Shown piece after piece: positions 27,410-38,297 of a stretch of DNA of 64,000 nucleotides (the stretch's first letter is position 1; every line of letters begins with the position of its first letter). Under the pieces are notes generated by a model. It was not told the origin of the DNA and did not search any database. It was given only the letters and a program-made list of their open reading frames with translations. The DNA comes from Desulforamulus ferrireducens. GTDB lineage: Bacteria > Bacillota > Desulfotomaculia > Desulfotomaculales > Desulfotomaculaceae. The translations under genes were made by a program, and so were the position numbers. The stretch is taken from NCBI RefSeq assembly GCF_002005145.1, contig NZ_CP019698.1, positions 1,364,001 to 1,428,000 on the forward strand, given 5' to 3'.

Positions 27410-28240
27410 ATGACAACCAGACAAGCCGACCAATGGGGAGTAAATGTGGACAGTTTACCAGATTTCTGGGTGGATGCTGAAAAATTATCTATTATTCAAG
27501 ATTTTATGTTCTCCGGCATTAACGTGATGCTTACCGGGGACCCTGGTACAGGGAAAACCGAATTAACCAAAAGATTGGCCCAGGCTCACCAACTACCCTT
27601 CCACAGAGTAAACGTGGGTGCCATTCGTACCCCCAGAGATTGGTTTGGACACTGGGAATTTATTGGTGGACAAACGGTTTTTATTCAATCGGAATTTGTG
27701 GCGGCCATACAGCGCCCGGGCATCGTGGCTCTTGACGAATTTAACCGGGTTACTCCGGATATTCATAACTCCATCTATACCATCTTAGACCATAACCGTG
27801 AGGTCTATATTGAAGAGACCAAGCAGCATATTTCGGTACACCCCAGATGTATCTTTATTGCCACGGAAAATAGGGGGCGCAGCCATACCGGTACATTTAT
27901 GGAAGACACCGCAGTAAGTGATCGCTTTGAAACCATCCAGTTAGAGTTACCCCCGGTGGAAATCATGGCCCACCTTTTAGAAAAGGTATATGGGGCAGAG
28001 ACGGAACAAGCTTTACTGCTAGCCAGAATTACCCATAAACTCAACACATTGTACCACGAAGAAAGCCTCAGTCGTCCCACCGGTTTCCGACCGGCCATAT
28101 CTGCCACTGCTTTATTAAAAAGAGGTCAAGCATTAAATACCGCTCTTAAATATACTTTTGTTAATCGCTTTTCGCCAGAAGGTGGCGTGGACAGTGAACA
28201 AACCACCGTGCTTCAGGTGATTCAGGCTTATTTGAAATGA
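27410..28240 (+). CDS. MoxR/CbbQ-type AAA+ ATPase
   Basis: A 276-residue protein with ATG after ACGGAGGTAATCAAA. Walker A GDPGTGKT is at 43-50 and Walker B VALDEFNR has D109-E110. The sensor segment IFIATENRGRSHTGTF and SDRFETIQLELPP match MoxR-family AAA+ proteins. These act as chaperone-like ATPases with a VWA partner. The next gene encodes such a partner, 81 nt downstream, so a two-protein remodelling system is likely. The client protein is unknown. Confidence 0.9.
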   Translation: MTTRQADQWGVNVDSLPDFWVDAEKLSIIQDFMFSGINVMLTGDPGTGKTELTKRLAQAHQLPFHRVNVGAIRTPRDWFGHWEFIGGQTVFIQSEFVAAIQRPGIVALDEFNRVTPDIHNSIYTILDHNREVYIEETKQHISVHPRCIFIATENRGRSHTGTFMEDTAVSDRFETIQLELPPVEIMAHLLEKVYGAETEQALLLARITHKLNTLYHEESLSRPTGFRPAISATALLKRGQALNTALKYTFVNRFSPEGGVDSEQTTVLQVIQAYLK

Positions 28241-28321
28241 TGCCATTGGTTTCAGGCCCACAGCCCTTTTGAAATATTTGTTTGGCTGTGAACTAATATA
28301 ACATGAAGTGGTGGTGATTTA

Positions 28322-30121
28322 GTGGCTGTGCAAAATCAAGTGGCAGTTTGGAAAAATAAAAGCTTGTCGGATTTTTGGCTTACGGGCAGAGGGTTGGAGC
28401 AAAACAACAGAGCCAATGGCCAGCCCTATGCCTTGTTTAGTCATAAACTATTGGCTTCAGAAGATATGGATGCCCAGGCTATGGCTATGACTGCTATCCT
28501 GGGAGCAGTGTCCCGCGTGATTGACATTGTCCATGGCCGTAATAAATTTACCGTTAACTTTAGCTCACAGGAAGTGAGAACTAATTTTGCCACCAAGCAA
28601 ATAGCCCTCAGTGCGGAGCCGCTGATGAATCCTCCCCCAGGCTATTTGATGCCAGACATTGTGGATGTTCTAACAGGCATGGCCCTGCATGAAGCAGCCC
28701 ATGCCCAGTTCAGTAAACCGGAATATTATACAGAAATGCCAGGAAACCCTTTTATGGCAACTATCCGCAATGTTGTGGAGGATGTCTATGTGGAACACCT
28801 GACCAGTCTGTATTATCCCGGCTATGCCGGTTACTTTTGGAAATACCGTCGGTACGAATTTGATTTGCAACCAGAGAAATGGGCCCATCAACCAAAGAAA
28901 GACTTAATGGAGAATGAACTAAATTTACGTGCCAGTGATTTTCTGTTAGTCATGCGCTCCACCAGAGATTATGTATCCAGCGTGCCCAGGGTAAATAATG
29001 TGGCAGAAATGCTGCGTAAGATGATTTACATTGATAACCCGGCCCGCTTGGAAAAGCTAAATACCAGGAATGTTGCTAAAAAGATTTATGAAGAACTGTT
29101 TGGAAATATGATCCAGCATGATATAGCTTATTCATTGCCCAGTACTTTGTTAGACTATAACAAACGTGGCCAGCACCAGGCGGAAGCAGGTAGTGCTCAA
29201 AATGATTTTAAAACCAATATACCTAGTGATTTGCAGAATTTAATTCAAAATATGCGGCAGGAACAATTGCAGGTTGCTAACCTGAGTGAACTAATGGAAG
29301 CCGGCTTGGACCCGGATTATCCGCCACCACCGCCGCCCATGGTAGTGTTCCGCCGGCCCCTCATCGGTGAAGGGGCTGCGGAAAGGTATGAACAATCGCG
29401 CAGTGTGGTTAAACCCTTTGTTATCAGACTCCGTAACCGACTGAGTTGGGCCAATACCAGACAGGTTATTAACCAATACCAACTACCCAGCGGTGAACTG
29501 GATGAGGATAGTTTGTACCAGGCCAGTTATTCCAATAAAATATTCCGGCGCACGGAAATTATCAATACCCGTACCCGTAATTTGGATATTGGTTTACTGG
29601 TTGATACCAGCGCCTCTATGGTATATCCTGCGGGAGAAGGGATATCAAGGGTAGAATTAGCCCGTCATCTGGCCACATTATTTGTGGAAGCGCTGGAACC
29701 GGTGGATTCGGTTAAAACCTGGGTATTTGGTTTTAATTTAAAGGGTGCTGTAAACATGACTGAGTTGTATTCACCACAGCTTACCAATAAGGCTCGCCTT
29801 GGTATGACTAATGCAGAGGGGACCACACCAGAGGGGACGGCCATTAAATATGCGGCCCTACGTTTGCTGGCAGAGGGGCGGCCCTTTGTCCAAAAGGTGT
29901 TGGTTGTGATTGCCGATGGCAACCCTAATCCGGGACCAGAGACCAGGCTAGTTAAGGAGCAGGTCAGAAAATTAAAGGGGCAGGGTTGCAAAACCATCAA
30001 TATTTTGCTGGGAGATCGACCGCTGGAGTACGGGTATCAATACACCATTCCCTGGACTGACTTCTATACAGTTACCACTGAGTTTGGCAGATTACTAAAA
30101 AAGCTAGTGGAAGAGGAATAA
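28322..30121 (+). CDS. VWA-domain protein with HExxH metallopeptidase-like region
   Basis: A 599-residue protein with GTG start after GGTGGTGATTTA. The N-terminal half has HEAAH at 123-127 and, about 23 residues on, NVVEDVYVEH (150-159), the spacing seen in CobT-like and DUF2201-type putative metallopeptidases. The C-terminal VWA domain has the MIDAS motif DTSAS (D428, S430, S432), with a GTTPEGTA segment further on and VVIADGNPNPG. It pairs with the MoxR-type ATPase just upstream. Whether the HExxH site is catalytic is not known. Confidence 0.85.
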   Translation: MAVQNQVAVWKNKSLSDFWLTGRGLEQNNRANGQPYALFSHKLLASEDMDAQAMAMTAILGAVSRVIDIVHGRNKFTVNFSSQEVRTNFATKQIALSAEPLMNPPPGYLMPDIVDVLTGMALHEAAHAQFSKPEYYTEMPGNPFMATIRNVVEDVYVEHLTSLYYPGYAGYFWKYRRYEFDLQPEKWAHQPKKDLMENELNLRASDFLLVMRSTRDYVSSVPRVNNVAEMLRKMIYIDNPARLEKLNTRNVAKKIYEELFGNMIQHDIAYSLPSTLLDYNKRGQHQAEAGSAQNDFKTNIPSDLQNLIQNMRQEQLQVANLSELMEAGLDPDYPPPPPPMVVFRRPLIGEGAAERYEQSRSVVKPFVIRLRNRLSWANTRQVINQYQLPSGELDEDSLYQASYSNKIFRRTEIINTRTRNLDIGLLVDTSASMVYPAGEGISRVELARHLATLFVEALEPVDSVKTWVFGFNLKGAVNMTELYSPQLTNKARLGMTNAEGTTPEGTAIKYAALRLLAEGRPFVQKVLVVIADGNPNPGPETRLVKEQVRKLKGQGCKTINILLGDRPLEYGYQYTIPWTDFYTVTTEFGRLLKKLVEEE

Positions 30122-30164: not shown

Positions 30165-30589
30165 TCTTATATTGACAACAAAATATAATTATGTCAAGTT
30201 TTTTTAATAAAAGTGACGCTTTTTTGGGAAAGTAATTTATTAAAAGATTGAATAACAAAGTGTAATGTTTTTTTGTACAGTAAAACAACTATTTTTTTGT
30301 CCAAAAGAGTAGTGACAAAGAAATTTTGTCAGGGCCGAAATGGTTATGCTAGAAACAAAATATTGTAATGAAAACAGTAAAATCAACAAAAATATTTTTG
30401 CTTTTAGTGCAAAAAAGTACTTGAAAATAAAAAAACCTTTTGATAGCATTACCGCAAAGGCAATGACAAAGAAGGTAATAAGAGAGATATAATTTTTGTT
30501 TTATATTGATTAAGAAAAACCTGCTGAGATAGGGCAGGTTTTAAAATGATAATATTATTATACCTGCTTGGGTTATGGGGGTGGAGGAT
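30165..30589 (+). promoter_or_regulatory. Conserved 5' region of transposase-like gene, unit 1
   Basis: AT-rich noncoding DNA. It contains an inverted repeat with arms TGACAAA and TTTGTCA (30313-30331) and a 17-nt block GTGCAAAAAAGTACTTG (30407-30423). Both recur at nearly the same spacing upstream of unit 2 (34462-34480 and 34555-34571). Further small hairpins (AACCTGC...GCAGGTT at 30519-30540) lie before the start codon. An operator, an RNA leader or transposon-end remnants are all possible. Confidence 0.55.
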
Positions 30590-31957
30590 GTGTTTTTTCG
30601 CAAAATAACCACCAAGAAAAATGGCAAAGAATATGTTTACGTAAAATTGATTGAAAACTACCGTCAGGACGGGAAAGTTAAGCAGAGGGTAATAGCTAAC
30701 TTCGGCAGTGTGGAGAACTTATCTTCTGAACGAATCAATTATTTAATTGCCAGCTTGAAAAAACTACACAAGGAGATTCAACCCCAAACAAGCGATTTAA
30801 AAATCACACCCCATACCACTACGACAATTAATTACGTACGCAATACCCTGCGGCAATCTCCGGTTAGCCAGGCTTTACAAGGGATATTTGGCTCGAAGGA
30901 TTATCCTTATATAGAGGCATTACTCATTAAAAGCATTGTGGCCCCAGACACTAATCAACCCATTCAAGAGGTATGCAAAAACCTGGGGTTTAACGAAGGT
31001 ACTAGCCTAAACTATTACAACGTCTTAAAAAGGTTAGGTGATGACGCCAATAGATTACCCCTTTTAAAAGCAGGGCTTGAGTATTGCCGGGGAAATGAAA
31101 TTATTCACAATCCCATATTTATTTACATTTTGCAAAGTACTTTTGAAGGTAGTTCCTTTGATTACGATCTTACTGGCAATATGTTTTTAACCCAAAACTA
31201 TCAAAAACCCATGACTCTTTTCTTAGCCAGTTCGCCAGAGGGTGTTCCGCTGGATTATCAGTTCACAGAAGACAGTGAAGAAGTGGCCAAGGAATTACCT
31301 TTATTTATTTCCAGGCTAAAGAGTATTTTTGACGGTAAAATAATAGTTTTGGATGATAATGGTTATTTGCCAACCTCGCTGCCAGGTTGTTTGATTGCCA
31401 GACCAGTATCTGAAACCACGGCAAACCAGGACACTGCTCTGCGTTTTTATGTCAGTAACTTTAAGCAGGTTAGCCAAGGCAAAATAAAAGAAATAAAGGC
31501 TAAATTGGCTAAAGTTTCCGCTGGGTTGGAGAACTTAAAGGCAGATATTTTGTTAGGTAAGTTAACGAAAGAAAGTCAGGTTAGAAAGAAAGCCGATAAT
31601 GTCATAAAGAGTAATCAGTGTGATGAATTAGTGATATACAGCTACGAGGAAGCTACTCACTCATTCCATTATGAAATTGATCAAGCAGCGCTTAAGGAAA
31701 AACAGGAATCGGTATTTATTACCCCGTGGGAAATACAGGGACATAACGATGATAACCTCTTAGAAGAACTAACTGATATTCAAATGAAAACAGGCCAGTT
31801 TAAGATGCTAACCGACCAACTAAAGATACCACCCATTAATATTTACGTGGATTATCATTACTCGCCGGAAATTATCTCGGGCCATATTCAGCTTGAGATT
31901 TTAAAAAGCCAAGTTCAAGGCGCAATGAACAATCCGTCTATAGGGGGTGGGATATAG
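30590..31957 (+). CDS. IS1634-transposase-like protein, probably domesticated (unit 1)
   Basis: A 455-residue intact frame; GTG at 30590 is chosen to match the paralogue at 34703, although an in-frame ATG lies 15 nt upstream. The N-terminus (FFRKITTKKNGKEYVYVKLI, VKQRVIANFG) is that of IS1634-family transposases. By my alignment, candidate catalytic Asp residues are D193 (DLTGN) and D255 (VLDDNG), but the expected Glu of the YREK box is Thr401 and its Lys is Thr408. The protein is about 100 residues shorter than the typical IS1634 enzyme. It sits upstream of the TauE/SafE gene with no obvious terminator between. A DNA-binding or regulatory role is inferred. Confidence 0.65.
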   Translation: MFFRKITTKKNGKEYVYVKLIENYRQDGKVKQRVIANFGSVENLSSERINYLIASLKKLHKEIQPQTSDLKITPHTTTTINYVRNTLRQSPVSQALQGIFGSKDYPYIEALLIKSIVAPDTNQPIQEVCKNLGFNEGTSLNYYNVLKRLGDDANRLPLLKAGLEYCRGNEIIHNPIFIYILQSTFEGSSFDYDLTGNMFLTQNYQKPMTLFLASSPEGVPLDYQFTEDSEEVAKELPLFISRLKSIFDGKIIVLDDNGYLPTSLPGCLIARPVSETTANQDTALRFYVSNFKQVSQGKIKEIKAKLAKVSAGLENLKADILLGKLTKESQVRKKADNVIKSNQCDELVIYSYEEATHSFHYEIDQAALKEKQESVFITPWEIQGHNDDNLLEELTDIQMKTGQFKMLTDQLKIPPINIYVDYHYSPEIISGHIQLEILKSQVQGAMNNPSIGGGI

Positions 31958-31964
31958 AAGGGTT

Positions 31965-31990
31965 AATTTTGTCAATACAAATTTCTTCTT
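31965..31990 (+). repeat. 26-bp conserved block 3' of transposase-like gene, unit 1
   Basis: Identical to 36077-36102, the equivalent position in unit 2. It starts AATTTTGTCAATACAAAT and contains the TTTGTCA half-site seen in the upstream inverted repeats. Confidence 0.7.
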
Positions 31991-32129
31991 TTCTTCAAGT
32001 TGATTGTAGCACCTTTGTAGTGAATATTCAATATTTATAGGCGCAAAAATTATATTTTTTGTCATCACTACAATGAGAATTTTCATCTCTTAAGCACCTT
32101 GAGACATAATTCAAAAGGGGGTTACCCAG

Positions 32130-33416
32130 ATGCGAGGACTATATGAGGCTTTAATGGCTGCATCCAGGGCCCACGCCAAATGGGAACTGGAAATGTCCAA
32201 TAATATTATTAAGAACAGGAAACATTTATTCATTTTAGCTCTTATGATGCTTCCTCTCGTTATACCTGCCATTGGTCATGCTGCTGATCTGCCTGGTTTT
32301 TTGGGTGGTAAAAGTGCCTATGGACCATCTTACTATAACCCAACCATGTTTTATGGTTCCATAGCCGTGGGTATTTGTGCTGGCTTAATTACCGGCTGTA
32401 TTGGTGCCGGTGGTGGTTTCGTGATTACACCTGCTCTGATGAGCTTAGGCGTTAAAGGTATTCTGGCAGTTGGTACCGACCAATTCCATATCTTTGCCAA
32501 AGCCATTATGGGTACCGTAATTCACAAGAAATTAGGTAACGTTAACGTTGCTCTGGCCATTGCCTTCCTGATTGGTTCCGGTGTTGGTGTAACTGCCGGG
32601 GGTAGTTTAAACCGTGCTTTGTTTAATGCCAACCCTGTTATGAGTGATTTTGTGATCAGTGCTATTTATGTTGTTATGCTTGGTTTCCTCGGTTTCTATT
32701 CCTTGTATGATTTCATTAAGACCAGACATCAAACCGGTGGAGATGCTCACGGCGGTCCCGTGGGTACAACCAAATTAGCTCTGAAATTACAGAGCATTAA
32801 TCTGGCTCCTATGGTTAAGTTTGATGAGGACTTATATCCTGGTGGACGTAAGATCTCTGGTTGGTTTGTTGCCCTCTGTGGTGCTGTGGTTGGTTTTGCT
32901 GCAGCTATCATGGGTGTGGGCGGTGGTTTCTTAACCTTCCCCATGTTCGTATATGGCTTAGGCGTATCCTCCTTTACCACTGTGGGTACTGACATTCTGC
33001 AAATTATCTTTACTGCCGGTTATAGCTCCATTGCTCAGTATGCCATCTATGGCTATATTTTCTACACCCTGGCCATGGGTATGTTGGTTGGTTCCTTGCT
33101 GGGCATCCAGATCGGCGCTGCCACCACAAAGGTTGTTTCCGGTATCTATATCAGAGCTTTCTATGCCCTTGCCATTTTAGCTGGTTTTGTTAACAGAGCC
33201 TTTGCCCTGCCGGAAAAAATGGCCCAAATGGGTTACATTCAGTTGGATGCTGCCTCGGGTAAACTGTTGGCAGATATTGGTGCTTGGATATTCTTTGGTC
33301 TAGTGGTTATGTTTGCTGGTTGGATTATCATTAGCTTCATTCGTGGTATACCCACACTGCGGGCAGAGAGTGCCAAGGCTGCTATGGCCTCCGATGGGAA
33401 GGGAGTGAGCCATTAA
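32130..33416 (+). CDS. TauE/SafE-family anion permease (unit 1)
   Basis: A 428-residue membrane protein with ATG after AAAGGGGGTTACCCAG. It has the TauE/SafE repeats: GCIGAGGGFVITPALMSLGV with AVGTDQFHIFAKAIMGT in the first half, and AAIMGVGGGFLTFPMFVYGL with TVGTDILQIIFTAGY in the second. It is longer than usual (about 250-300) because of an amphipathic N-terminal stretch of about 28 residues plus a signal-like helix ending IGHAAD, and a cytoplasmic-type loop around PGGRKISGW. The family moves sulfite, sulfonates and related anions; sulfur-anion transport is plausible in a sulfate reducer but not shown. It overlaps the next gene by 1 nt. Confidence 0.88.
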   Translation: MRGLYEALMAASRAHAKWELEMSNNIIKNRKHLFILALMMLPLVIPAIGHAADLPGFLGGKSAYGPSYYNPTMFYGSIAVGICAGLITGCIGAGGGFVITPALMSLGVKGILAVGTDQFHIFAKAIMGTVIHKKLGNVNVALAIAFLIGSGVGVTAGGSLNRALFNANPVMSDFVISAIYVVMLGFLGFYSLYDFIKTRHQTGGDAHGGPVGTTKLALKLQSINLAPMVKFDEDLYPGGRKISGWFVALCGAVVGFAAAIMGVGGGFLTFPMFVYGLGVSSFTTVGTDILQIIFTAGYSSIAQYAIYGYIFYTLAMGMLVGSLLGIQIGAATTKVVSGIYIRAFYALAILAGFVNRAFALPEKMAQMGYIQLDAASGKLLADIGAWIFFGLVVMFAGWIIISFIRGIPTLRAESAKAAMASDGKGVSH

Positions 33417-34132
33417 TGATTAGAGACAGTAAGGCTTTCTTGATCGGGATAATTATGATGGTTTCTTTCTTAGGAATTTATGCCTACATGATGAGTCCCT
33501 CCTTTGGTGACGGAAGAAATGGTTTGGAATTTGCTGACGATATGTTTAACTCCATTTCCAAAGGTTCCGTGGAGAAAGTAATTCAGGGCGAAATTGGTAA
33601 AGTAGACGCGTGGAATGGTAACAATATCGATGTTACCCTGCAGGCTAAGGATGCAGAGGAAGCCGACAAATGGTCTAAGATGATTGAAACCGTTGATGGT
33701 TCCCAGGTAGCTGTCAATAACGAGGCTGTTACTGTTAAGGCAGATCTTGGCAAAGTTCTAGCCGACATCGGAGAAGTCTGCACCAATATGTTTAATAACA
33801 ATGGGGATGCCATTGAACAGAAATATGGTCTTGAGGCCCGCGATGCCACCTATAGTTGGTATAATATTTCTAAAGCCATAGTCAAGGACTTGGAAAAACA
33901 GCAACAATTTAAAGAGTCCATTGCTATTCAACAGTTCCAGAAAAAGGTTATCGAACCCTCTTACAACTATTATGGAGTGGAAGCCAAGCAAGTTAGTAAC
34001 AACGTTGGTATCATGACTTTCATGATGGTGTTCTATCTCATTTACACCATCTGGTATGGTTTTTCCATCTACTACCTCTGCCAAGGTTTTGGTATTACCA
34101 TGAGCAAGTCAGCTAAAAAACAAGAAGCATAG
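33416..34132 (+). CDS. Two-helix membrane protein partner of TauE/SafE (unit 1)
   Basis: A 238-residue protein whose ATG overlaps the permease stop (TAATG). An N-terminal membrane helix (LIGIIMMVSFLGIYAYMM) is followed by about 160 residues, probably outside the cell (FGDGRNGLEFADDMFNSISK, VEPSYNYYGVE-like), then a second helix (MTFMMVFYLIYTIWYGFSIY) and a short basic tail. No named family is recognised. The same gene follows the second permease, so the two products probably form one transport or sensing complex. Confidence 0.75.
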   Translation: MIRDSKAFLIGIIMMVSFLGIYAYMMSPSFGDGRNGLEFADDMFNSISKGSVEKVIQGEIGKVDAWNGNNIDVTLQAKDAEEADKWSKMIETVDGSQVAVNNEAVTVKADLGKVLADIGEVCTNMFNNNGDAIEQKYGLEARDATYSWYNISKAIVKDLEKQQQFKESIAIQQFQKKVIEPSYNYYGVEAKQVSNNVGIMTFMMVFYLIYTIWYGFSIYYLCQGFGITMSKSAKKQEA

Positions 34133-34148
34133 TGGGAAAAGACTAATG

Positions 34149-34191
34149 GAGTGTCACGCTACTTGTTAGTAGTCAGTGACACTCTTTTTTT
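34149..34191 (+). terminator. Terminator of unit 1
   Basis: GAGTGTCAC (34149-34157) pairs with GTGACACTC (34176-34184), followed by TTTTTTT. Confidence 0.85.
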
Positions 34192-34702
34192 GTACGTTTC
34201 TAAGATTTCCCTTGATGAAAGTATAATGAAAACTAGGGCTTCTGCCTACGTACTCAAGGAGTTGGCGCAAGCCAAATTTTTCTAATCAGCCAGCCATAGT
34301 GATAGCAAATGTGAAACAAAACTTTTAATTTTAGATAGAGTAACAGTTTTTTGTCAATAGTTTTTTGTGAAATTTATCATAAATAATTAATTGTGCCGAT
34401 TGAGAACCCCTAATACAGGTAAAAAAGTGTAAAATACTTCCGCATATAGTGCCATTTGCTCTGACAAAAAAATTTTGTCATAGCGGTAATATTCAATCTT
34501 GAGCTGGTTTGAGTAATGAAAACTATCTACCAGCTAAGAAATTTTTTTATTTATGTGCAAAAAAGTACTTGCAAACATAAAACCTATTTGTTACTATTTG
34601 CGCAAAATTAAAGGACAAAAATTAATGAAGTTACAATCAATCAATAAGATAATTAAAGTTAAGTAACATAAATAATATATGCGATAGATTGGAGGTGAAG
34701 GC
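34192..34702 (+). promoter_or_regulatory. Conserved 5' region of transposase-like gene, unit 2
   Basis: AT-rich noncoding DNA of about 500 bp. The inverted repeat TGACAAA/TTTGTCA is at 34462-34480 and the 17-nt block GTGCAAAAAAGTACTTG at 34555-34571, matching unit 1; the sequence in between has diverged. A further TTTGCGCAAA palindrome lies near 34598-34607. The ribosome site GGAGGTGAAGGC precedes the GTG start at 34703. Confidence 0.55.
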
Positions 34703-36073
34703 GTGTTTTTTCGCAAAATTACCACCAGAAAAAACGGCAAGGAATATGTGTATGTTAAGCTAATCGAAAACTACCGCTCCAATGGCCGGATAAAGCAAAG
34801 GGTAGTGGCCAACTTCGGTAGCTTGGAAAACCTTTCACCCCAAAGGATTAGTGATTTGATTAATAGTTTACAAAGGCTCTACCAAGACATCGAACAGAAA
34901 CAAGATAATAAGCCGGTGGTGGAAGACCTCCTGGAACAGTCTGCCGAAACAATTAAAACAATAAGAAACTGTCCTATGCTTGAACCTCTCAAACAACTTT
35001 TCTCTGCCACACAATATCAAATCTTAGAAGCTATCATCATAAAATCTCTGATTGCTCCGGAACTAAATAGACCCATTCAGGAATTGTGCCAACAGTTAGA
35101 GTTGGTGGATGCCAGCAGTATTGAGTTTTATAACGTTTTAAAAAAGTTGGGTGAAACGGAGTTCAGGCCTCTGTTGGATAAAGTATGGGTAACAATACCT
35201 GGGGCAAAGGAAGAGGATTACAAAGTAATCTATATTCATCCCATCAATGGCATATTTAAGGGTGCGACCTTTCTCTCTGATCCCACAGGTAACCCATATG
35301 CCACTGAAAATTACCAAAAGGAATATGTTCTGTGGTTAGCCTACAATAGTCAGGGGGTACCCTTGGACTTTACCAGAGTGGAAGAAATGGGGCAGCTAAA
35401 AGGGCAGTTAAACCGCTTGGTGCAAAGGTTGGAGGATTTGTTGGACTGTCAGGTGGTTGTGATGGATGCCGATGGTATTCTCACTGACATAGATGTACCC
35501 TACCCCGTAGCCTCGCTGGCAAAGGGCTTAACGCGGGGAGTAAACCCAAATCAGTACTACAGTTTCCAGGCTATCCAAATAGAACCAGAGAATGAAGTGA
35601 AAATAAAAGAAATAAAAGCCAACCTGGCAAAGGTTTCCGCTGGCCTGGAGAACATCAAAGCAGATATTCTGCTAGGGAAACTAACTAAAGAAAATGTGAT
35701 CAAGAAAAGGGCAGAGGCGGTCATAAGAACCAATGGTTGCCAAGAGATGGTTTCGTTTTTCTATAATGACACAAACAAAACACTTAACTATTACATCAAG
35801 GACGATGTTGTGGAAGAAAAGACTAAGTCGCTGGTAACCTCCCAATGGGTGGTGCCTAAGGAAAAATTTAAAGACAATATTAACCTACCCCAGGTGACAA
35901 TAAAAAACGATCGGTTTCGTAACATCACCGATCAGTTAAACATACCACCTATTAACTTATACGCCGATTTTCATTACTCAAGGGAAATAATCTCAGGCCA
36001 CATAGCTCTGGAGATTATTAAAAACCAAATAACCATGGTAGCCAACATACCATGGCAAGGAGGTGATTCTTAA
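34703..36073 (+). CDS. IS1634-transposase-like protein, probably domesticated (unit 2)
   Basis: A 456-residue intact paralogue of the 30590 product, with GTG after GGAGGTGAAGGC. The N-terminus FFRKITTRKNGKEYVYVKLI and the central block KIKEIKANLAKVSAGLENIK are strongly conserved with unit 1, while other parts have diverged. D193 (DPTGN) and D255 (VMDADG) fall at the same residue numbers as in unit 1; the YREK positions are Asn402 instead of Glu and Thr409 instead of Lys. Loss of the Glu in both copies while the frames stay open argues for a retained non-transposition function. Confidence 0.65.
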   Translation: MFFRKITTRKNGKEYVYVKLIENYRSNGRIKQRVVANFGSLENLSPQRISDLINSLQRLYQDIEQKQDNKPVVEDLLEQSAETIKTIRNCPMLEPLKQLFSATQYQILEAIIIKSLIAPELNRPIQELCQQLELVDASSIEFYNVLKKLGETEFRPLLDKVWVTIPGAKEEDYKVIYIHPINGIFKGATFLSDPTGNPYATENYQKEYVLWLAYNSQGVPLDFTRVEEMGQLKGQLNRLVQRLEDLLDCQVVVMDADGILTDIDVPYPVASLAKGLTRGVNPNQYYSFQAIQIEPENEVKIKEIKANLAKVSAGLENIKADILLGKLTKENVIKKRAEAVIRTNGCQEMVSFFYNDTNKTLNYYIKDDVVEEKTKSLVTSQWVVPKEKFKDNINLPQVTIKNDRFRNITDQLNIPPINLYADFHYSREIISGHIALEIIKNQITMVANIPWQGGDS

Positions 36074-36076
36074 AAT

Positions 36077-36102
36077 AATTTTGTCAATACAAATTTCTTC
36101 TT
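36077..36102 (+). repeat. 26-bp conserved block 3' of transposase-like gene, unit 2
   Basis: Identical to 31965-31990 and at the same position relative to the stop codon. The following 140 bp are only weakly similar apart from TTTGTCAT, AAGCACCTT and the GGGGGTTACCC ribosome region. Confidence 0.7.
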
Positions 36103-36245
36103 CTTCGTCAAGAACATTTTAGCATCTATATCTTTGTTAATCAAGACTCAGTATTAAGAATTATTTGAAATTTGTCATTACCATTAGAAAAACTCTTTGT
36201 TCAAGCACCTTTGTAATCTAAAAACAGATAGAGGGGGTTACCCGC

Positions 36246-37535
36246 ATGAGAGGATTATACGAGGCTCTAATGAGCGCCTCGCGAGCCCATGCCAGATGGG
36301 AAATTGAAATGTGTAATAACATTGTACGAAGCAGAAAACACTTATTAATTCTATTGATAATGTTACTACCTTTGATAATACCTGCCATTGGTCATGCTGC
36401 TGATCTGCCTGGCTTTTTGGGTGGCAAAAGTGCCTATGGACCATCCCACTATAATCCAACCATGTTTTATGGTTCCATGGCTGTAGGCGTTTGTGCCGGC
36501 TTGATTACCGGTTGTATTGGCGCCGGTGGCGGTTTTGTAATCACCCCCGCTCTGATGAGCTTAGGCGTTAAGGGTATCCTGGCCGTAGGTACTGACCAAT
36601 TCCACATCTTTGCCAAGGCTATTATGGGTACTGTAATTCATAAAAAACTGGGTAACGTTAACGTTTCTCTGGCCATTGCCTTCCTGGTTGGTTCCGGTAT
36701 CGGTGTAACCGGCGGCGGTTCCTTAAACCGGGCCCTGTTCAATGCCAACCCGGTATTCAGTGACTTTGTTATTAGTACCGTTTACGTGGTTATGCTAGGT
36801 TTCTTGGGCTTTTACTCCTTGTATGACTTCATTAAGACTAAAGGTAAGTCCGACAAGGGCGATGCCCATGGTGGTCCGGTTGGTTTAACTCCTCTGGCCA
36901 AAAAATTACAAAGCATTAACTTAGCTCCCATGATTAAGTTTGACGAAGACATCACTCCCGGTGGCCGTAAAATCTCCGGTTGGTTTGTAGCCCTTTGCGG
37001 TATGGTAACTGGCTTTTTGGCAGCTATCATGGGTGTGGGCGGCGGTTTCGTAACCTTCCCGATGTTTGTCTACGGTTTGGGTGTATCTTCCTTCACCACT
37101 GTAGGTACTGACATTCTCCAGATCATCTTCACCGCCGGTTACAGTTCCATCGCTCAGTATGCCATCTACGGCTATATCTTCTATACCCTGGCCATGGGTA
37201 TGTTAGTAGGCTCACTGCTGGGTATCCAAATCGGAGCAGCGACCACCAAGGTAGTTCCCGGTATTTACATCAGAGCCTTTTATGCCATCGCCATTCTGGC
37301 CGGTTTCGTTAACAGAGCCTTTGCTCTGCCCGAGAAAATGGGTCAAATGGGTTATATCACCATTACTCCAGAAGCGGGTGCTTTATTGAACAGTATTGGT
37401 ACCTGGATCTTCTTCGGGTTAATCGTTATCTTCGCGGGTTGGATTATCCTTGCTTTCATTAGAGGTATCCCCACCCTGCGGGCTGAAAGTGCCAAAGCTG
37501 CTGAGGCAGCCGGTGGGAAAGGAGTGAGCCATTAA
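36246..37535 (+). CDS. TauE/SafE-family anion permease (unit 2)
   Basis: A 429-residue protein, ATG after AGGGGGTTACCCGC. It is nearly the same as the unit 1 permease along its whole length, including the unusual N-terminus (MRGLYEALMSASRAHARWEI), the IGHAAD boundary, GCIGAGGGFVITPALMSLGV and the IRGIPTLRAESAKAA tail. Differences cluster in the loop near residues 196-212 and around residue 375. Conservation here is far higher than between the two transposase-like proteins. It overlaps the next gene by the same TAATG arrangement. Confidence 0.88.
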   Translation: MRGLYEALMSASRAHARWEIEMCNNIVRSRKHLLILLIMLLPLIIPAIGHAADLPGFLGGKSAYGPSHYNPTMFYGSMAVGVCAGLITGCIGAGGGFVITPALMSLGVKGILAVGTDQFHIFAKAIMGTVIHKKLGNVNVSLAIAFLVGSGIGVTGGGSLNRALFNANPVFSDFVISTVYVVMLGFLGFYSLYDFIKTKGKSDKGDAHGGPVGLTPLAKKLQSINLAPMIKFDEDITPGGRKISGWFVALCGMVTGFLAAIMGVGGGFVTFPMFVYGLGVSSFTTVGTDILQIIFTAGYSSIAQYAIYGYIFYTLAMGMLVGSLLGIQIGAATTKVVPGIYIRAFYAIAILAGFVNRAFALPEKMGQMGYITITPEAGALLNSIGTWIFFGLIVIFAGWIILAFIRGIPTLRAESAKAAEAAGGKGVSH

Positions 37536-38251
37536 TGATAAGAGATAGTAAAGCCTTTATCATGGGGTTGATTATGTTACTAGCCTTTATGGGAATTTAC
37601 GCCTACATGATGAGCCCTTCCTTCGGCGATGGCAGAAACGGTTTGGAATTTGCCGACGACATATTTAACTCCATCTCCAAAGGTTCCGCCCAGGCAGTAA
37701 TCCATGGCGAAGTTAAAAATGCCGAAAAATGGATCGGTAACACCATCGAGGTTGAGCTGACCTGCAAGGACGAAGAACAGGCTGCCAGATGGGCCGATGC
37801 CCTCAATAAGGTAGACGGTGCAGAGGTAAAGGTTAATCAAACTAATCTTTCATTAAAAACTGACTTTGGCAAACTACTGGCCAACATTTCTGAGGATTGC
37901 ATCGCTATGTATGATAACAAGGGTGATGTGGTGCAGGCTAAGTACAACACCGACCCCAGAGATGCAACTAACCGTTGGTACAGTATTACTAAGGCCATAG
38001 GTAAAGATCTGGAAAAGAAGGAACAATTTAAGGAATCCATTTACCTGGCAACCTATCAGAAGAAGGTAATTGAGCCTGCTTATAACTACTATGGTGTGGA
38101 AACCAAATTTGTGAAAGACAATAAAGGCACCATGACCTTCCTGCTTCTCTTCTATTTGTTCTACACCCTGTGGTATGGTTTTGCCATCTACTATCTCTGT
38201 GTGGGCTTTGGCATCACCATGAACAAAGCCGCCAAAAAATCCGAAGCTTAA
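37535..38251 (+). CDS. Two-helix membrane protein partner of TauE/SafE (unit 2)
   Basis: A 238-residue paralogue of the 33416 product, the same length, with identical SPSFGDGRNGLEFADD and a conserved EPAYNYYGVET segment. The middle of the extracellular part (residues about 55-120) is the most divergent, as expected if it binds different ligands or simply drifts. Membrane helices lie near residues 8-26 and 203-228. It closes the second three-gene unit. Confidence 0.75.
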   Translation: MIRDSKAFIMGLIMLLAFMGIYAYMMSPSFGDGRNGLEFADDIFNSISKGSAQAVIHGEVKNAEKWIGNTIEVELTCKDEEQAARWADALNKVDGAEVKVNQTNLSLKTDFGKLLANISEDCIAMYDNKGDVVQAKYNTDPRDATNRWYSITKAIGKDLEKKEQFKESIYLATYQKKVIEPAYNYYGVETKFVKDNKGTMTFLLLFYLFYTLWYGFAIYYLCVGFGITMNKAAKKSEA

Positions 38252-38268
38252 TTTGCTTCATGAACCTA

Positions 38269-38297
38269 AACACCCCCCTGCCGGGGTGTTTTTTTTA
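38269..38297 (+). terminator. Terminator of unit 2
   Basis: AACACCCCC (38269-38277) pairs with CGGGGTGTT (38282-38290), followed by TTTTTT. Confidence 0.9.

Follow-up and report, generated by a model that had tools for sequence, protein, structure and literature searches.

A catalytically dead descendant of an IS1634 transposase as a putative regulator of sulfur-anion transport in Desulfotomaculales

In the genome of Desulforamulus ferrireducens (NCBI RefSeq assembly GCF_002005145.1, contig NZ_CP019698.1), positions 1,364,001 to 1,428,000 of the forward strand make up a stretch of 64,000 nucleotides, here called the window, in which two consecutive three-gene units raise a question: why does a gene of insertion-sequence type stand, twice over and in the same order, at the head of a set of transport genes? 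Each unit consists of a gene of IS1634 type, which we call gene A (copies A1 and A2), followed by a TauE/SafE permease gene and a gene for a two-helix partner protein. The answer that we propose, with a probability of roughly 0.77, is that gene A is a domesticated, dead IS1634-family transposase that now regulates transcription of a sulfur-anion transport regulon in a sequence-specific manner, and that its operator is the ancestral transposon site. The two copies of gene A in the window are the following.

30590..31957, plus strand: gene A1, a catalytically dead IS1634-derived protein and putative regulator; GTG at 30590 is the likelier start (455 amino acids), and the open reading frame (ORF) is open from ATG at 30575
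34703..36073, plus strand: gene A2, 456 amino acids, a catalytically dead IS1634-derived protein with an N-terminal three-stranded sheet and helix and a Tn5-like RNase H core

Gene A is a catalytically dead descendant of an IS1634 transposase, and its origin is single. The IS1634 family was split from the IS4 family (PMC2266710), and the window copies of gene A score below every family model; neither gene A nor the partner reaches the cut-off of any Pfam or NCBIfam family. The link to IS1634 runs instead through graded intermediates, since distant homologues from other families of the order score 252 (locus L073), 205 (locus L069), 79, 65, 49 and 48 bits against the NCBIfam IS1634 model (NF033559), which has a cut-off of 100 bits. 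In a tree with 27 genuine elements, the gene A family forms a single clade with a support of 99. Alignment with seven genuine IS1634 elements, all of which carry the full DDE triad, reveals that the first catalytic aspartate is present in none of 58 gene A family members, the second in 26 and the glutamate in two. The Pfam DDE domain is likewise found in none of the seven family members tested, and three genuine elements match DDE_Tnp_1 at 1e-16 to 1e-19. The fold of the ancestor appears to be kept. An AlphaFold2 model of gene A2 (mean predicted local distance difference test score, pLDDT, 86.8) shows an N-terminal three-stranded sheet and helix followed by an RNase H-like core, and its closest solved structure is the Tn5 transposase (Z 9.2, root-mean-square deviation 5.1 over 242 residues); a search of solved structures by sequence found no relative. 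The gene is under purifying selection. The ratio of nonsynonymous to synonymous substitution rates (dN/dS) is 0.10-0.29 over the whole gene and 0-0.04 in most pairs for the N-terminus (first 60 residues), and outside the genus residues 1-40 show 83% mean pairwise identity, falling to about 25-45% further on. We also looked for the ends of an element, taking as the IS1634 criterion terminal inverted repeats that start with C-----YT and target duplications of 5-6 bp; no inverted repeats bracketing gene A1 or A2 were found, and the genuine IS1634 elements tested do have terminal repeats.

A sequence motif accompanies gene A. In the non-coding DNA of the modules of the genus, TGACAAA/TTTGTCA is seen 50 times against 2.7 expected and is the top enriched 7-mer, and in most of these modules the interval from gene A to tauE holds two boxes at a spacing of 86-91 bp. 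The motif GTAGTGACAA was obtained independently from the regions upstream and downstream of gene A at 34 loci in other genera, where TAGTGACAA occurs 39 times in non-coding gene A neighbourhoods against 1.2 expected and the sites precede tauE, DASS, CBS and sensor kinase genes as well as gene A itself. At sulfate-reduction loci, TAGTGACAA is found four times in genomes with gene A (0.2 expected) and not at all at 15 loci in genomes without it (0.5 expected), a contrast that is not free of phylogeny because the two sets of genomes differ in ancestry. In genomes with gene A, the non-coding DNA around gene A and at sulfate-reduction loci is enriched 27-33 times in GTAGTGACAA. Across the 43 genomes with gene A outside the window's family, 62 exact copies of TGTAGTGACAA were counted, of which 24 lie no more than 10 kb from gene A (0.4 expected). 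The modules themselves contributed to the initial discovery of the motif; the tests made in other genera, at sulfate-reduction loci, in the genome of D. ferrireducens and in insertion sequences are independent of them. In two species that have lost gene A2, the flanking boxes are still present.

The same motif is found in genuine IS1634 elements. At 35 distinct loci we scanned the 200 bp ahead of the transposase gene and the 120 bp that follow it. Six sites match exactly, where 0 were expected, and 19 match when one mismatch is allowed, against an expectation of 0.6. All save one share one orientation, and their typical positions are 67-96 bp ahead of the start and right at the stop codon; no motif follows the stop of 216 ordinary ORFs. 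In several of these elements (L207-L246) motif and stop overlap, because the TAG of GTAGTGACAA doubles as the stop codon of the transposase.

In the genome of D. ferrireducens (3.24 Mb, one contig) the motif is not in excess genome-wide; what stands out is where it is placed. Apart from those in the modules, sites precede the YeiH gene, two TauE genes, hdrCB-sat-aprBA-qmoAB and the NhaB gene, and others lie in the gap after qmoB. If up to one mismatch is allowed, the genome has 44 sites, and by a count from coordinates 12 of them fall in the non-coding DNA of these sulfur genes or of the modules, and a reversed pattern used as control gives 0 of 81 in the same regions. Within the window the sites are as follows.

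30309..30319, plus strand: putative operator, exact GTAGTGACAAA, one of five in the genome
30313..30331, no strand: palindrome TGACAAA-N5-TTTGTCA upstream of gene A1, of which the genome has only two exact copies
30464..30470, plus strand: TGACAAA half-site upstream of gene A1
31968..31978, minus strand: operator-like site GTATTGACAAA between gene A1 and the permease gene
32058..32064, minus strand: TTTGTCA box, 90 bp from the preceding site, a pair kept in most modules of the genus
34350..34356, minus strand: TTTGTCA half-site upstream of gene A2
34462..34480, no strand: palindrome TGACAAA-N5-TTTGTCA upstream of gene A2, the other exact copy
36080..36090, minus strand: operator-like site GTATTGACAAA between gene A2 and the permease gene
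36171..36181, minus strand: operator-like site GTAATGACAAA before permease 2, 91 bp beyond the preceding site

We considered TGACAAA as a -35 promoter element and rejected it: none of the boxes in the gene A-tauE interval has a fitting -10 element beside it, and a promoter scan stayed at chance level. Two further places in the genome deserve mention. A 960-bp stretch after qmoB without long ORFs (L178 16193-17152; genome about 715.2-716.2 kb) holds five TGACAAA-type sites before an HD-domain gene. An exact GTAGTGACAAA at genome position 571,470 (L177 5471) lies within the coding sequence of an SsuB/TauB-like ABC ATPase, the neighbours of which resemble a sulfonate-type ABC transporter.

The hosts of gene A are spore-forming bacteria that respire sulfate, and its distribution ties it to sulfate reduction by genomic association. 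Of 113 genomes from the order Desulfotomaculales, 53 carry it, among them all eight other genomes of the same genus and one more of the same family, often as a tandem pair. Outside this family, 43 genomes of the order have one family member each, mostly of 460-580 amino acids. When we scanned 84,980 prokaryote species with the family alignment, 40 loci were found, all in Desulfotomaculales (Desulfallas, Desulfoscipio, Desulfotruncus, Sporotomaculum, Desulfofundulus, Desulfovirgula, Desulfocucumis, Desulforudis, Ammonifex, Desulforamulus and metagenome-assembled genomes), a few of them bearing odd taxon labels; a first scan with a single gene A protein also gave no relatives outside the order. 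In the order without the window's family, aprA is present in 38 of the 43 gene A genomes (Fisher P 3.5e-6), and the other five have dsrA. Gene A lies 7-27 kb from aprA in 20 genomes. Its usual neighbours are a DASS sodium:sulfate symporter, a second symporter of CitMHS type, CBS-domain proteins and TauE with its partner, and further ones include other TauE proteins, hdrCB-qmo or hdrBC-qmo-apr, and dsrC; gene A is thus not tied to TauE alone. Three side observations concern these loci. In Sporotomaculum-like genomes (L118, L120, L124, L148), which are without aprA and the transporters, gene A stands beside dsrC and a NifX-like gene. In a Desulforamulus aquiferis draft (locus L065, genome G052), the gene A copies and the VWA gene are split, by sequencing error or decay. 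Finally, a Rex-like palindrome, TTGTGAAATATTGCACAA (TTGTG-N8-CACAA), lies upstream of gene A at 18 of 34 loci in other genera (loci L117-L144; 23 seen, 0.44 expected), for example 203 bp before the start in L127, and is nearly absent from the window's genus; it may reflect redox control.

How gene A might act can be outlined from these comparisons. We infer that it binds the motif and that binding controls transcription. The conserved N-terminal domain of about 60 residues would still read GTAGTGACAA, which is found inside IS1634 ends beside the transposase gene. After the loss of catalysis, copies of the site before the TauE/SafE, DASS, YeiH, NhaB, CBS and hdr-sat-apr-qmo genes would constitute the regulon, and the sites before gene A would provide autoregulation. 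One may guess that two gene A molecules bridge paired sites about 90 bp apart, as a transposase pairs two ends, and thereby loop the DNA and shut the promoter; this is a guess because the relative orientation of the paired sites differs between genera. The proposal in its fullest form, that transposase and transposon site were domesticated together to become the main regulator of sulfate and sulfite transport, and partly of sat-apr-qmo, in Gram-positive sulfate reducers, perhaps bridging sites about 90 bp apart, is tentative, and we put it at slightly short of an even chance.

Several observations weigh against a regulatory role of gene A. Searched by fold, the N-terminal domain matched none of the known DNA-binding domains significantly; arm-type integrase and PC4 domains came up at noise level only, so that the lack of a match is uninformative. 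In genuine IS1634 elements, the motif within one mismatch is confined to 12 of the 35 loci (three close kin), and the remaining loci may carry diverged sites. Drift in the window's genus has turned the motif into GTAnTGACAAA and shorter versions, and therefore the strict 11-mer TGTAGTGACAA is a poor probe there. The contrast at tauE promoters unlinked to gene A is weak, with nine sites in four of ten loci in genomes with gene A and three single sites in ten loci in genomes without it. The last of these points also speaks for the rival explanation that survives best, namely that the motif is the operator of a different regulator and that gene A has been co-inherited with some other job, for instance as a nucleoid or RNA-binding protein: a few degenerate sites do precede tauE where gene A is missing, and the Rex-like palindrome indicates that other regulators act upstream of gene A in other genera. 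Against this, genuine IS1634 elements have this motif next to their transposase gene, its occurrence at sulfate-reduction loci follows that of gene A, and in genomes of many genera it is concentrated near gene A. We consider this explanation unlikely.

A second rival explanation takes gene A for an accessory subunit of a TauE/partner transporter complex, as the order gene A, tauE, partner, constant throughout the genus and shared by some other genera, might suggest. This is very improbable, since gene A also stands beside DASS, CBS, hdr-qmo or dsrC genes without tauE, tauE/partner pairs occur without gene A, both in genomes lacking it and as the second unit of G053 and G056, and the fold is that of a transposase. 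The same facts bear on the first-pass annotation of this DNA, made from the sequence alone. It had described gene A as a fixed, IS1634-derived gene linked to sulfur-anion transport in a sulfate reducer, which holds; it had also made gene A a structural part of a three-gene transport operon, which does not hold because gene A adjoins DASS, CBS, other TauE, hdrBC-qmo-apr and dsrC genes as well and TauE/partner pairs are found without it, the first of two observations that the annotation itself had said would refute its reading. A regulatory role was not proposed there. That annotation rightly denied that gene A is a passing insertion sequence. We reject this possibility on copy number and context, the single clade, dN/dS and the lack of terminal repeats, and we did not find the second refuting observation, copies scattered over unrelated places in the genome and bearing terminal repeats and target duplications. 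A decaying insertion carried as a neutral passenger in a transport operon, which the clear IS1634 ancestry and degenerate catalytic core might bring to mind, is scarcely credible for a gene of single origin under such selection in 53 genomes of the order, with no flanking terminal repeats and three copies in identical context in its own genome. No more credible is a recombinase that cuts or inverts the tandem transport units as a switch: the RNase H-like transposase fold is kept and tandem units occur in several species, but activity is rejected on catalytic residues (first aspartate lost in 58 of 58 members, glutamate in 56 of 58), and the single-copy members outside the genus lack any tandem target.

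The remaining parts of the two units are listed here.

32130..33416, plus strand: TauE/SafE (TSUP) permease of unit 1, 428 amino acids, Pfam PF01925 at 2.4e-35
33416..34132, plus strand: partner of unit 1, 238 amino acids, two hydrophobic helices flanking a middle domain as read from the sequence
34151..34190 (about), plus strand: intrinsic terminator of unit 1, a hairpin read directly as GAGTGTCAC...GTGACACTC followed by T, which the terminator scan missed owing to its loop limit
36246..37535, plus strand: TauE/SafE (TSUP) permease of unit 2, 429 amino acids, Pfam PF01925 at 5.7e-36
37535..38251, plus strand: partner of unit 2, 238 amino acids
38268..38291, plus strand: intrinsic terminator of unit 2, from the terminator scan

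Both permeases score far above the PF01925 cut-off of 32.6 bits (122.8 and 124.8 bits), and their substrate, judged from family and neighbours, is probably sulfite, sulfate or sulfonates. The tandem arrangement, the gene lengths, the 1-nucleotide overlap of permease stop and partner ATG (TAATG) in both units and the separate terminators are as first described, and so is the order of divergence, with identities between the units of 86% for the permease, 62% for the partner and 42% for gene A. A third full unit lies 0.8 Mb away at genome positions 598,571-602,017, followed by a YeiH-family (PF03601) gene. The whole genome contains three copies each of gene A and the partner and no further ones, and each gene A stands before a tauE-partner pair. 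Orthologues from different members of the genus resemble each other more closely than the tandem paralogues do, at 92% against about 86-87% for the permease, and gene A1 shares 73% with the first copy of Desulforamulus aeronauticus against 42% with gene A2; the tandem duplication is therefore older than the species. Directly 5' of the modules, here (window 27410-30121) as in other Desulforamulus, lies a gene pair for a MoxR-type AAA ATPase and a VWA-domain protein.

Compared with the IS1634 insertion sequences themselves, gene A shares the transposase N-terminal domain, the overall alignment, the RNase H-like fold and, with part of the family, the GTAGTGACAA-type site beside the transposase gene. 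It differs in having no DDE triad, terminal inverted repeats or mobility, in its single-copy or fixed context, and in strong divergence from residue 61 to the end. Among known regulators of mobile-element origin, the plant transcription factors FHY3/FAR1 (PMC13306707) are likewise a domesticated transposase, of Mutator-like type, that regulates transcription, but they are eukaryotic and belong to another superfamily with another DNA-binding domain, whereas the operator proposed for gene A is a bacterial insertion-sequence site and its regulon sulfur-anion transport. The RNA-guided transcription factors TldR (PMC13418256) resemble gene A as proteins of transposon origin that regulate bacterial genes; they derive from TnpB and need a guide RNA, whereas gene A, which has a DDE transposase as its ancestor, would recognise DNA directly. 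Regulators co-opted from phages and toxin-antitoxin systems, of the Ner to SfsB type (PMC8987985), also place a mobile-element protein in host gene control, but they were already helix-turn-helix or ribbon-helix-helix regulators before co-option. A search by terms in this review, which deals with the co-option of mobile elements in prokaryotes, turned up no DDE transposase case (PMC8987985). On the transport side, the accessible part of a study of TauE/SafE (TSUP) and DASS transporters in sulfate reducers (PMC5840216), the same families that the motif precedes here, notes a DASS gene, Desgi_3715, near sat/apr, and we found in that part no regulator or operator of TauE/SafE or DASS genes.

Our searches of the open-access literature turned up no regulator that governs how Gram-positive sulfate reducers take up sulfate, and for this control our analysis offers a concrete candidate protein, operator and target list. 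It also indicates that the label 'IS1634 family transposase', as used in these genomes, often covers a conserved host gene. To our knowledge, and in the open-access literature, no bacterial transcription-factor family derived from a DDE transposase is known. If our reading is right, gene A would be the first such family, with an operator traceable to the mobile element, and it would provide a direct view of an insertion sequence turning into a gene switch.

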